Assembly: GCA_016177805.1 (NCBI GenBank)
Contig: JACOUN010000006.1
Coordinates: forward strand, 1-64,000
DNA: 64,000 nucleotides
DNA from: Rhodocyclales bacterium
GTDB taxonomy: Bacteria; Pseudomonadota; Gammaproteobacteria; Burkholderiales; Rhodocyclaceae
Direction: 5' to 3'
Shown piece after piece: positions 18,242 to 53,282 of the stretch; within the stretch, counting starts at the first letter, position 1, and each line of letters opens with the position of its first letter. The notes under the pieces were generated by a model that ran no database searches, was not told the DNA's origin, and was given only the letters and a program-made list of their open reading frames with translations. The position numbers and the translations under genes are program-made.

Positions 18242-18317
<76 letters not shown>

Positions 18318-18333
18318 ATCGAAGAGACACTAG

Positions 18334-18409
18334 GTCCCCATCGTCTAGAGGCCTAGGACATCGCCCTTTCACGGCGGTAACCGGGGTTCGAATCCCCGTG
18401 GGGACGCCA
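18334..18409 (+). tRNA. tRNA-Glu (anticodon TTC)
   Basis: 76 bases with encoded CCA. Anticodon loop CTTTCAC gives TTC. The T arm GGTTCGAAT is standard. Confidence 0.97.
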
Positions 18410-18469
18410 GACAAGGCGACACGTCGAAGACGGGTCGCAAGCCGGAGCGGTAGCGCCGGTAGCAGTTCA

Positions 18470-18546
18470 GGAGTGGTAGTTCAGTTGGTTAGAATACCGG
18501 CCTGTCACGCCGGGGGTCGCGGGTTCGAGTCCCGTCCACTCCGCCA
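18470..18546 (+). tRNA. tRNA-Asp (anticodon GTC)
   Basis: 77 bases with encoded CCA. Anticodon loop CTGTCAC gives GTC. Third member of the first triad. Confidence 0.97.
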
Positions 18547-18622
18547 ATATCGAGTCACCCTGCCGACGGTTCAACCGGGTGCGGGGCGCAGGTGGAAACG
18601 GCACGGATGTTGTGTCGGAGGC

Positions 18623-18651
18623 TTGCGGTAGTAGGGTTGCATGGCTATAAT
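18623..18651 (+). promoter_or_regulatory. Promoter of the second tRNA triad
   Basis: TTGCGG (18623-18628) and TATAAT (18646-18651), 17-base spacer, 13 bases before the second tRNA-Ala. The second triad can therefore be transcribed independently of the first. Confidence 0.7.
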
Positions 18652-18664
18652 GCGCAGCTCCGTT

Positions 18665-18740
<76 letters not shown>

Positions 18741-18756
18741 ATCGGAGTAACACTAG

Positions 18757-18832
18757 GTCCCCATCGTCTAGAGGCCTAGGACATCGCCCTTTCACGGCGG
18801 TAACCGGGGTTCGAATCCCCGTGGGGACGCCA
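18757..18832 (+). tRNA. tRNA-Glu (anticodon TTC), second copy
   Basis: Same sequence as 18334-18409, also displaced by 423 bases. The spacer before it differs at a few positions from the first copy. Confidence 0.97.
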
Positions 18833-18892
18833 GACAAGGCGGCACGTCAGTGACGGGTCGCGAGCCGGAACGGTAGCTCCGGTAGCAGTTCA

Positions 18893-18969
18893 GGAGTGGT
18901 AGTTCAGTTGGTTAGAATACCGGCCTGTCACGCCGGGGGTCGCGGGTTCGAGTCCCGTCCACTCCGCCA
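18893..18969 (+). tRNA. tRNA-Asp (anticodon GTC), second copy
   Basis: Same sequence as 18470-18546, displaced by 423 bases. It is followed closely by an intrinsic terminator. Confidence 0.97.
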
Positions 18970-31442: not shown

Positions 31443-31739
31443 TTAGACCTGCGCCTGGTCCGCGTCCAAGGGTTCGACCTGGAGCAGGTTGTCGTTGGCG
31501 AAGTTGACCAGGAATTTGTACGCAAGAGGCTCGATGTCGTAGAGCCGCGCATCGACGACGACGGTCTTGTCGCCTTTGAGGTTGCATCCGGGGCGTACAT
31601 AGCGCGAATACTTCATGCGGTTGTCGGAGCCGAATGCCGACATGATTCCGCACAGACGGTCTGCCCAGTCGCTCGGGCGGAATTTCTTCCCTTCCCGCGT
31701 AACGCCGATAATCACGAAACTCTCGAATGTCTGGTTCAT
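31443..31739 (-). CDS. DUF3579 domain-containing protein
   Basis: 98-residue protein of a family almost confined to betaproteobacteria. The conserved blocks Gly-Lys-Lys-Phe-Arg-Pro-Ser-Asp-Trp-Ala-Asp-Arg-Leu-Cys-Gly and Asp-Ala-Arg-Leu-Tyr are clear. Function unknown; family genes often adjoin argD as here, but on the opposite strand in this genome. No membrane or signal sequence. Confidence 0.88.
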   Translation of the reverse strand: MNQTFESFVIIGVTREGKKFRPSDWADRLCGIMSAFGSDNRMKYSRYVRPGCNLKGDKTVVVDARLYDIEPLAYKFLVNFANDNLLQVEPLDADQAQV

Positions 31740-31944
31740 CTGTCAGGCCGTGGTCGCTGCATTTTTATCGCGCTGCAACATGGGCCGGGATTCTAACAGA
31801 AAACCGCGCCCCGGCAGGGGGTATATGCACGCGAGTGATCATGATGTGCTCGGGGGCGAGCCGGGGTGCCGGGGCGATTCAAGGGGGGGTATGGCCGGTT
31901 ATGTACAATGATCCCCGTTTACCTTAAGATTCCCGCCTTAGCCG

Positions 31945-32106
31945 GCAGCCTGCCGGACTTGAGGCTGATCTACCGCGCCAGTGGGAAAACGGTTCATATT
32001 TTCCCGTTTTCTCGTTGCATAGAACCACTATGCGCCTCGAAAACGGGCAAATCTGTCCTCGTTCTCCCACATCGCGAGTGACGATCGCTCAAGTCCGGCA
32101 GGCTGC
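31945..32106. mobile_element. 162-base palindromic repeat with perfect 19-base terminal inverted repeats, copy 1
   Basis: The ends gcagcctgccggacttgag (31945-31963) and their exact reverse complement (32088-32106) bound a non-coding body. The centre carries a nested palindrome, cccgtttt ... gcatag aacca ctatgc ... aaaacggg. A diverged copy of the same length is at 52678-52840. No transposase is encoded, so it is a non-autonomous MITE or a structured RNA/DNA repeat. The rest of the 425-base gap (31740-32164) shows nothing recognisable. Confidence 0.8.
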
Positions 32107-32164
32107 TAGTCACGGCGGCGCCTGCCGCCGTGTGCGTTTCTGGATCATATAGACGGGGTTCGTC

Positions 32165-33337
32165 ATGTCGCATCTCATGAACACCTACGCCAGGCTGGCA
32201 GTGGCGTTTTCGCATGGTGAGGGTGTCTGGCTCTTCGATGAAGATGGCAAGCGTTATCTGGACGCGTTGTCCGGGATTGCCGTCTCTACGCTGGGCCACA
32301 ATCACCCGCGCCTGGTGCGTGCCATCGCGGAGCAGGCCGGGTGCGTGCTGCACACATCGAATCTTTACCGCATTCCGTTGCAGGAAGAACTTTCCGATCG
32401 GCTCGCGGCCTTGTCCGGAATGGATGAGGTGTTTTTCTGCAACTCCGGATGTGAAGCCAACGAGGCTGCGATCAAGCTGGCCAGGTTCTATGGGCATCGC
32501 AAGGGCGTCGATCAGCCGACCATCATCGTGATGGAGAATGCTTTTCACGGACGCACCATGGCAACCCTCTCGGCCACCGGCAACCGTAAGACCCAGGCCG
32601 GCTTCGAGCCGCTGGTGTCGGGGTTCGTGCGGGTGCCGTACAAGGACATCGGTGCGATCCGCAAGGTCGCCGAGCACAACGGTAATGTCGTGGCGGTGAT
32701 GCTGGAGATGGTGCAGGGCGAGGGTGGCATCAACATCGCCGACGACGAATTCCAGCGCGAACTGCGCTCGGTGTGTGACGAGCGTGGCTGGTTGCTGATT
32801 TGCGACGAGGTGCAGTGTGGCATAGGCCGCACCGGCGGCTGGTTTGCTTTCCAGCAGGCGGGGGTGATGCCCGACGTCGTGACGGTGGCCAAGGGGCTGG
32901 GGTCGGGGGTGCCGATAGGCGCCTGCCTGGTAGCCGGTCGTGCGACCGGCCTGTTCGGGCCGGGCAACCACGGCTCGACGTTCGGTGGCAATCCTCTGGC
33001 GTGCGCGGCGGGGCTGGAGACGCTGTCGACGATAGAAGACGATCACCTGATGATGAATGCCGTGAAAATGGGCGAAGTCATCAAGAGCGGCTTGCGTGAA
33101 GCGCTCGATGGGGTGTCCGGTGTGGTGGACATACGTGGCCGCGGGCTGATGATCGGCGTCGAACTCGATCGTCCGTGCGGCGAACTGGTCGCGCGTGCGC
33201 TTGACGCGGGGTTGCTGATCAATGTGACGGCGGAGCGGGTCATCCGTCTGTTGCCGCCGCTGATCTTCTCCGAGCAGGACGCGCATGCTCTGGTGCACCT
33301 TCTCGCCCCGCTAGTACGCAAACATCTCGAACAGTGA
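32165..33337 (+). CDS. argD: Acetylornithine transaminase
   Basis: PLP-dependent aminotransferase of 390 residues in arginine (and possibly lysine) synthesis. Class III motifs: Asn-Ser-Gly-Cys-Glu-Ala-Asn-Glu-Ala-Ala, Phe-His-Gly-Arg-Thr, Cys-Asp-Glu-Val-Gln-Cys-Gly-Ile-Gly-Arg-Thr-Gly, and the Schiff-base Lys in Thr-Val-Ala-Lys-Gly-Leu-Gly. It starts a three-gene arginine operon. Confidence 0.95.
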   Translation: MSHLMNTYARLAVAFSHGEGVWLFDEDGKRYLDALSGIAVSTLGHNHPRLVRAIAEQAGCVLHTSNLYRIPLQEELSDRLAALSGMDEVFFCNSGCEANEAAIKLARFYGHRKGVDQPTIIVMENAFHGRTMATLSATGNRKTQAGFEPLVSGFVRVPYKDIGAIRKVAEHNGNVVAVMLEMVQGEGGINIADDEFQRELRSVCDERGWLLICDEVQCGIGRTGGWFAFQQAGVMPDVVTVAKGLGSGVPIGACLVAGRATGLFGPGNHGSTFGGNPLACAAGLETLSTIEDDHLMMNAVKMGEVIKSGLREALDGVSGVVDIRGRGLMIGVELDRPCGELVARALDAGLLINVTAERVIRLLPPLIFSEQDAHALVHLLAPLVRKHLEQ

Positions 33338-51014: not shown

Positions 51015-51731
51015 GTGAGTTACGCGAATTCCCGTATTCCTGCCAGCGCCCAGGCTGGTGTGCATGAGAAGCTTGCGCAGTGCGTAAGCCGGCATTTGTC
51101 GCAGCCGTTTCGCAAGCCTTACGTGCAGTACAACCGGGATGCCCTGGACGCGAGCCTGGCCGGTTGGGACGGGCGGGCGCCGCTGATACTCGACGCGGGG
51201 TGCGGGGTCGGCCACAGCACCATACAACTGGCGCGCAGCTATCCCGACCATTGGGTGATAGGCGTCGACCAGTCGGAGGACCGCTTGAATCGGCGCAAAC
51301 CCTATCCCGAAGCGCTTCTGCCGCGCAACATGGTGTTCGTGCGCGCCGATCTGGTCGACTACTGGCGGCTATGCTGCGATGCGGGCTTGCAACTGGCGCG
51401 CCACTACATCCTGTACCCCAACCCGTGGCCCAAGATCGGTCATCTTGGGCGACGCTGGCATGCGCATCCGGTGTTCCCGTTCGTGCTGCGACTGGGTGGC
51501 GTGCTGGAGTGTCGCAGCAACTGGCGCGTCTATACCGATGAGTTTGCCGTGGCGCTGGCGCTGGCAAGTGGGCGTGACGTGGCGTGCGAGGACTACGAGG
51601 CCGCGACGCCACTGACGCCGTTCGAGCGCAAGTATCGCGATTCTGGCCAGTCGCTGTACAGGGTGATATGTGATCTCGATGCTGTCGTCGCGGGCGCATC
51701 TTGCGCGATGCGTCCGGATGGCGCAGTCTGA
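51015..51731 (+). CDS. TrmB-like SAM-dependent methyltransferase
   Basis: 238-residue protein from a GTG. SAM motif I is [10 protein letters not shown], and the TrmB hallmark Leu-Tyr-Pro-Asn-Pro-Trp-Pro-Lys is present. The TrmB C-terminal Thr-Asp-x-Glu motif is replaced by Tyr-Thr-Asp-Glu-Phe. The family makes m7G46 in tRNA. The N-terminus is shorter and unusual, so it may be a TrmB paralogue with another substrate. Confidence 0.75.
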
Positions 51732-51751
51732 GCGACTTGCTGGAGATGAAC

Positions 51752-52456
51752 ATGAATGCTGATGCCGCCCACCCGTTTGAATTGTCCGACGACGAATTCG
51801 ATGCCCTGGAAGAGTTGCTGACTTCGGAAGTCGTGCCCGACGACTGCATGAACCTTGAAATGCTCGATGGCTATCTTGCGGCGGTGGTTGCGTCGCCGGT
51901 GGTGATCGCCTCGACACGCTGGCTGCCCCACATATGGACCGCCCATGGTGACGAAGTGGACTTCGTTGCCGGGCACCGGATGCAGCGGGTGATACGCCTG
52001 GTGCTGTGCTACTACAACGAGCTTGCGACGACGATAGGCGCGCCCGACGGCTGGGAGCCTTTCTGGTACGGGGGGTCGGATGGCGAGGAGTTCGAGACCG
52101 GCGAGGAATGGATAGAGGGCTTTGCCCAGGGGCTGGAACTGTGGCCCGCCGATTGGGGCAGTGGTGTGCCCGAGGCCGATGCCGCGGCGGTCCGCATCGA
52201 GCTTGAGACACTGATGGAGCCCTGGAAGGACGGTTCCGTGGCGGGCGCCGATGAGCAGGCGCGGCTGGAGTGGCTGGAGCGGGCGCGGGTCGCGGTTTGC
52301 GCGATTGCCAGCCGCTGGCGCTCGCTGGGGCTGGCCTCGCCTGAGCCGCTGGTGGTCGAGGAGCCGGGGTTGCGTCGCGTGTCGACGCCGGGGCGCAACG
52401 ATCCGTGCCCGTGTGGCAGCGGCAAGAAGTATAAAAAGTGCTGCGGCGCGGAGTAA
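51752..52456 (+). CDS. UPF0149 (YecA-like) protein with C-terminal SEC-C zinc motif
   Basis: 234 residues. The N-terminal two-thirds is the helical, acidic UPF0149 domain (Glu-Met-Leu-Asp-Gly-Tyr-Leu). The last 20 residues are a SEC-C metal-binding motif ([13 protein letters not shown]) like that of SecA. E. coli YecA binds ribosomes through this element. Start at 51752, six bases after ctggag. Confidence 0.88.
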
Positions 52457-52621: not shown

Positions 52622-52677
52622 CCGCGCGCCGTGATCGATCGGCCGCTCTTGAGCACATACAACCATGGGCATCCCTA

Positions 52678-52840
52678 GGAGGCTGTCGGACTTGAGGCTG
52701 ATCTACTGCGCCAGTCGGTAAAACGGTCCATATTCGCCCGGTTTCTCGTTGCATAGAACCACTATGCGCCTCAAAACCAGGCAAATCTGTCCTCGTTTTC
52801 CCGATTGGCTCGTTACGATCGCTCACGTCCGATAGCCTCC
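52678..52840. mobile_element. 163-base palindromic repeat, copy 2
   Basis: Ends ggaggctgtcggacttgag (52678-52696) and ctcacgtccgatagcctcc (52822-52840) are inverted repeats with 2 mismatches in 19. The interior aligns with copy 1 along its whole length, including ctgatctac, ctcgttgcatagaaccacta, tgcgcctc and gcaaatctgtcctcgtt. The central gcatag-aacca-ctatgc palindrome is kept exactly. Confidence 0.8.
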
Positions 52841-52919
52841 AAGCAGGCGCGCAGCAGCGTCGATCCGGTGGTCTGGTCCTTCGGACCCGGCCGGCGATCG
52901 TCATTTGCGTGCGTTGGAC

Positions 52920-53282
52920 ATGAGCGAACCTAATCCCTGTCTCGATTGCGGAATCTGCTGTACGCATTTCCGCATTTCCTTCTATTGGGCTGAAGCGGAC
53001 GATGCCGAGGGCGGCTTCGTGCCGGCCGGCATGACCGAGAAGCTCAACCACCACATGCGTTGCATGAAAGGCAGCAACGATGTGCCGCGACGTTGCGCCG
53101 CGCTGGCCGGCACGCCGGGCAGTGCGGTGTTGTGCACCATTTACGAGCACCGCCCGACGCCTTGTCGCGAATTCCCGGTGTATTTCGAGGACGGCAGTCC
53201 CAACCCCAAGTGCGACGAACTGCGCGCCACCATCGGGCTGGGGCCGTTGCGGCCGTTGTTTCCGCTACCCGAGGCGGCCTGA
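52920..53282 (+). CDS. YkgJ family cysteine-cluster protein
   Basis: 120-residue protein of the zinc/iron-chelating CxxCxxCC family: Cys-Leu-Asp-Cys-Gly-Ile-Cys-Cys near the N-terminus and later Cys in His-His-Met-Arg-Cys and Thr-Pro-Cys-Arg-Glu-Phe-Pro. Probably binds an Fe-S cluster or zinc; function unknown. Start at ATG 52920. Confidence 0.85.
   Translation: MSEPNPCLDCGICCTHFRISFYWAEADDAEGGFVPAGMTEKLNHHMRCMKGSNDVPRRCAALAGTPGSAVLCTIYEHRPTPCREFPVYFEDGSPNPKCDELRATIGLGPLRPLFPLPEAA

Follow-up and report, generated by a model that had tools for sequence, protein, structure and literature searches.

A dispersed hairpin repeat with a polar, covarying core, probably a MITE mobilised by IS1182-family transposases

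The window, a 64,000-nucleotide stretch of the genome of a Rhodocyclales bacterium, carries a DUF3579 gene (31443-31739, minus strand) that is divergent from a class-III aminotransferase (argD-like) gene (32165-33337, plus strand). Copy 1 of a hairpin element (31945-32106, plus strand; oriented with its ATCTACTGCG-type half as the left one) lies between them, upstream of the aminotransferase gene. Its left terminal inverted repeat (TIR), GCAGCCTGCCGGACTTGAG (31945-31963, plus strand), is near-identical to IS1182-family ends and is the exact complement of the right TIR (32088-32106, minus strand), with which it pairs over 19/19 bp. A central stem-loop, GCATAG-AACCA-CTATGC, lies at 32017-32033 (plus strand); the family core is GTTGCATAG..CCACTATGCGCCTC. 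The positions given for the perfect 19-base repeats and the palindrome in the original prediction were borne out; both of the palindromes it described as nested are present, but folding showed them to be parts of one imperfect hairpin formed by all 162 bases. This fold has a stability of -95.7 kcal/mol as RNA (z -11.4) and -55.4 kcal/mol as DNA (z -10.9), with 0 of 200 shuffles equally stable in either case. Copy 1 contains no transposase gene and, at 162 bp, is too short for one. On its right, TAG (32107-32109) forms CTAG with the last C of the element, as a target duplication; the left counterpart is degenerate (TTAGCCG at about 31939-31944).

A GC-rich stem-loop, CACGGCGGCGCCTGCCGCCGTG (32111-32132), lies next to copy 1 upstream of argD, with a conserved promoter-like TTAAGAT stretch upstream of it. 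It is kept in a genome of the same genus (G001) and nearly so in one of the same family (G010), and is possibly a leader element of the aminotransferase gene. Elsewhere, at 18242-18969, the window carries two tandem copies of a tRNA-Ala(ggc)/Glu(ttc)/Asp(gtc) triplet, 423 bases apart; the tRNA scores are exactly the same in both, and the 423-base units are 78% identical overall.

Copy 2 (52675-52842, plus strand), neighboured by a UPF0149/SEC-C gene (51701-52456) and a CxxCxxCC gene (52905-53282), proved to be real and is 86% identical to copy 1. It is flanked on the left by CTAG (52675-52678), while its right end is degenerate (CAAG). Whole-genome search identified thirteen near-full copies at 76-100% identity, copy 1 included; beyond these, one copy at 70% and several fragments were found, giving a total of about fourteen near-full copies. 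The claim of a dispersed family of constant length holds.

The core pattern GTTGCATAGNNCCACTATGCGCCTC was found in 76 stretches of named genomes, from Marinobacter, Sedimenticola, Thioalkalivibrio, Pseudothauera, Azoarcus, Thiobacillus, Endozoicomonas and others. Marinobacter MAG-100 has dozens of copies, and many of its contigs stop inside them, making the element a likely cause of assembly breaks. As the core was the query, its conservation in this search is partly built in, and therefore a centre-free search using only the facing ends was run; this recovered the element in every genome (18 of 18) and gave no hit for the reversed control. The covariance model that had been proposed was built from 36 diverse copies; it matches copy 1 over 31946-32105 and has hits in 49 of the phylum's 398 genomes, the majority from one family of another class. 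The hairpin family ranges over beta- and gammaproteobacteria and a second class of the phylum, its subfamilies being about 160-170 bases long, and Azoarcus taiwanensis (G034) and the window's genome are placed in the same family. Copies are nearly absent from plasmids and phages: the window copy was found in none of either, the second subfamily in one plasmid among 72,556 and in no phage, and the viral contigs matching three core patterns numbered 0, 2 and 0.

Derived forms were also seen. In Sedimenticola (L100, L127, L141) there is a hairpin subfamily with a ~48-base insertion in the left arm, which is common to several copies, so the subfamily spread with the insertion. Derivatives of ~79 bases (L102, 1481-1559; L108, 4006-4084) have kept both ends and lost the centre.

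The original prediction had set its family against a mere pair of copies without structure-preserving substitutions, and this is clearly not what is seen: copies are many, 93% of cells pair in the 36-copy alignment, and double changes, affecting both sides, occur in 40 of 52 pairs. Double-change cells number 245 versus 68.2 ± 6.7 in shuffles, a value reached by 0 of 500 of these, and the covariation signal is gone when the partner is slid by one base. The outer ends (~11 bp), the core and two blocks, ATCTACTGCG on the left and CTCGCTACGAT on the right, are conserved; the remaining arm sequence varies with pairing maintained. The proposal that the centre is better conserved than the ends holds only in part: the outer ~11 bp are conserved as well, and it is the arms between that vary. 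The conserved blocks pair only partly with each other, which gives the element a fixed polarity. The same polar blocks are retained in the core and the ends differ between subfamilies, while asymmetric mismatches (TACTGCG/GTAGCGAG, GGTCCA/GAGGACA and CGTT/GAGGC) persist in the main subfamilies.

In comparisons of recent copies from five genomes, mutation rates were alike at paired and unpaired positions, showing that inserted copies decay. Within genomes, 25 kept double changes were counted versus about 3 expected (~8x chance). Thus, inserted copies decay and the lineages that spread retain the hairpin; 'rather than simple decay', as the structure had been interpreted, describes these lineages but not the individual copies. 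Template switching between the arms in replication, instead of selection, may be what explains most of the covariation, although we regard this as rather doubtful; it would complement mobilisation as a MITE. Even recent copies differ from each other by more double changes than chance would give. In at least one copy (L097), a clustered change in the right arm copies the left arm, for which reason template switching probably contributes. Uncontrolled correction of this kind would nonetheless erase the asymmetric mismatches that persist in the main subfamilies.

The strong covariation, and the location of copy 1 upstream of argD and downstream of the conserved promoter-like stretch, would also suit a structured RNA (a regulatory leader, sRNA or RNase III substrate) selected via its transcript, one of the roles originally suggested. 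This is very unlikely. There is no match to any curated Rfam family, individual copies decay, and wobble pairs are not favoured: on the modelled strand, G.T and A.C mispairs are both rarer than in shuffles (47 versus 79, with 154 versus 191 in shuffles), and one-sided changes within genomes give 46 G.T versus 64 A.C. That G.T is not preferred speaks against a selected transcript from the modelled strand; on the opposite strand, any wobble preference is weak at most. No strong preference for orientation or gene context was found either; this context was taken from crude longest-ORF calls (by which copy 1, truly divergent, was called convergent), and only the lack of a strong bias was used. Selection or arm-copying at the level of DNA and mobilisation, rather than of RNA, is what the signal suggests.

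A matching transposase had been proposed as a lead, and it was a correct one, pointing to the IS1182 family, whose ends are alike over 19-22 nt. Using a 40-nt consensus end as query, the TIR CTAGCAGCCTGTCGGACTTGA proved to match, at 95-100% identity over 21-22 nt, the termini of IS1182-family elements from P. putida pKF715A, P. aeruginosa pNY8709 and Aromatoleum EbN1, and the matched plasmid-borne elements (Pseudomonas, Aromatoleum) have CTAG on both sides. An IS5-type YTAR target, the first guess, was dropped for IS1182 on the basis of these plasmid matches. A second TIR type, GAGGCTGTCCGAGAATAGA, common to hairpin copies such as L245 and L260, is exactly one end of the intact IS1182 element L197 (G072). 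Genome G192 has an IS1182 element with the end TAGGAGGCTGTCCGAGAATGA together with hairpin copies ending in nearly the same sequence, TAGGAGGCTGTCCGATAATGA, and G392 has a decayed IS1182 element with one matching end. Further, different ends surround the same core in L119, L145 and L080. Against a part for IS1182, the ends of the resident IS1182 elements found in most host genomes are unlike those of the hairpin. Likewise, no IS1182 transposase (ISAzo1-like ones included) was found in the window's genome, the assembly of which is 91% complete, and drafts often lose repeats.

Two arrangements of these elements were observed in addition. At L275 (1345-3087, in G192), an IS1182 element has a ~14-base inverted repeat, AGAACCACCTATAG, on its two sides, as though it had inserted in the middle of a palindrome, with the target kept and not replaced. 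Adjoining elements, either two hairpin elements or a hairpin element and an IS1182 end, share a single CTAG at L084 (around 4384), L376 (its start), L285 (1926-1951) and L197 (around 2001), so element ends seem to serve as targets.

CTAG is present on both sides in 27 of 59 copies, and at least one flank departs from it in the other 32. In G061, occupied sites read CTGG-element-CTAG. Empty sites in Marinobacter relatives read CTAG at L097 and ATAG/TTAG at L108; CTAG or TA was duplicated at L097, and L108 is consistent with this. The flank data fit either a 4-bp or a 2-bp (TA) duplication and cannot firmly decide between them. Copy 1 is missing from G001, where the sequence continues as GATCAGTCACGGCGG, and the element is likewise missing upstream of argD in G010; in both, the right flank is intact, stem-loop 32111-32132 included, and the left junction of copy 1 can be placed only to within a few bases. 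The window has few CTAG sites (29 occurrences versus 220 expected from base composition), a rarity that would steer insertions away from genes. The idea that the hairpin is instead a stem-loop target replaced by IS1182 transposases, its ends being alike as target or scar, has a precedent in IS1272, an IS1182-family member that replaces inverted repeats (PMC5678879), and some IS1182 sequences do lie beside or around hairpin copies (L197, L285), but it is highly improbable, as the three empty sites (L097, L108 and copy 1) are simple insertions with no stem-loop lost, the stem-loop beside copy 1 is present in occupied and empty genomes alike, and replacement alone would not produce a homogeneous dispersed family.

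The repeat is most probably a MITE moved in trans by IS1182-family (DDE) transposases, inserting at and duplicating CTAG or its inner TA. It is short, has no transposase gene, possesses TIRs of 19/19 bp and is dispersed at unrelated sites; target-site duplication is seen together with empty sites, and its ends are common to an autonomous IS (IS1182, over 19-22 nt). We infer that an IS1182 transposase is the mover. Such an enzyme would recognise the ends of the hairpin element and act in trans, and the element would insert at CTAG (or the TA inside it), duplicating the target. The hairpin is unusually strict, more so than an ordinary MITE needs, and this was counted against a plain MITE. It may be that only copies that still fold are good substrates for transposition, and/or that active lineages have their palindrome repaired by copying between the arms during replication; the transposase or a host factor may make contact with the conserved asymmetric blocks of the core. 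Palindrome-specific mutation may instead be what keeps the core, and the sequence data fit either.

A further proposal, which we offer only tentatively, is that the core, and not the ends, is the unit of descent of a phylum-wide polar hairpin superfamily. The core would have been coupled to several TIRs (L001, L245, L119, L145, L080), each suited to a different IS1182-type transposase, and the transposition machinery or a host factor would recognise the hairpin itself (as a cruciform or extruded single strand) with its conserved asymmetric bulges.

Among known systems, ISAzo1 and related IS1182-family ISs share with the hairpin element ends of the CTAGCAG[C/G]CTGTCGGACTT type and CTAG at both flanks; they differ in being about 1.55 kb long, in encoding a DDE transposase and in having no internal hairpin core. 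REPs and REPINs are likewise dispersed palindromic repeats of bacterial chromosomes, but are described as units of 20-40 bp with GTAG/CGTC tags (PMC3733652), compared to 162 bp here, and are linked to a tyrosine transposase (PMC2817692) instead of having IS1182-type ends. Hairpin MITEs of Thiomargarita were considered, and no link to the family was made.

In the papers searched, the family's sequence strings and IS1182 MITEs led only to the cases in Methanosarcina. The IS1182-derived MITEs (ISMac2) of Methanosarcina acetivorans listed in Table 4 of PMC3852290 are 160 and 169 bp long, are present in 7-14 copies and have inverted repeats of 25-26 bp; one of the two also has 4-bp direct repeats. 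They resemble the hairpin family in these respects and in their IS1182 partner, a likeness by description; they differ in their archaeal host and confinement to a single species, and the account of them in PMC3852290 reports no full-length hairpin or covariation. YPAL/RU-2 of Yersinia (167-168 bp) and ERIC/RU-1 (127 bp) are described in PMC2759123 as gene-less, mostly intergenic long hairpins with TA ends and TA duplications, as is the case here; the partner IS is unnamed in that description, unlike that of the IS1182-linked hairpin family. Homology to YPAL/RU-2 (168-bp repeat) was rejected, with a best local score of 21 compared to a shuffled mean of 21.4, and ERIC was set apart by length (127-bp consensus compared to about 160-170 here).

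The hairpin family looks undescribed as a family, while its general kind is known. It provides a widespread non-autonomous family, absent from Rfam and from the papers searched, for which a partner transposase is probable and a covariance model is at hand. As the polar core is kept across classes and the ends are variable, it allows a direct test of whether transposition of elements like ERIC and YPAL requires their long palindromes or whether these arise as a side effect of palindrome mutation. What sets the family apart is a polar, covarying core that spans the phylum and is joined to different ends.
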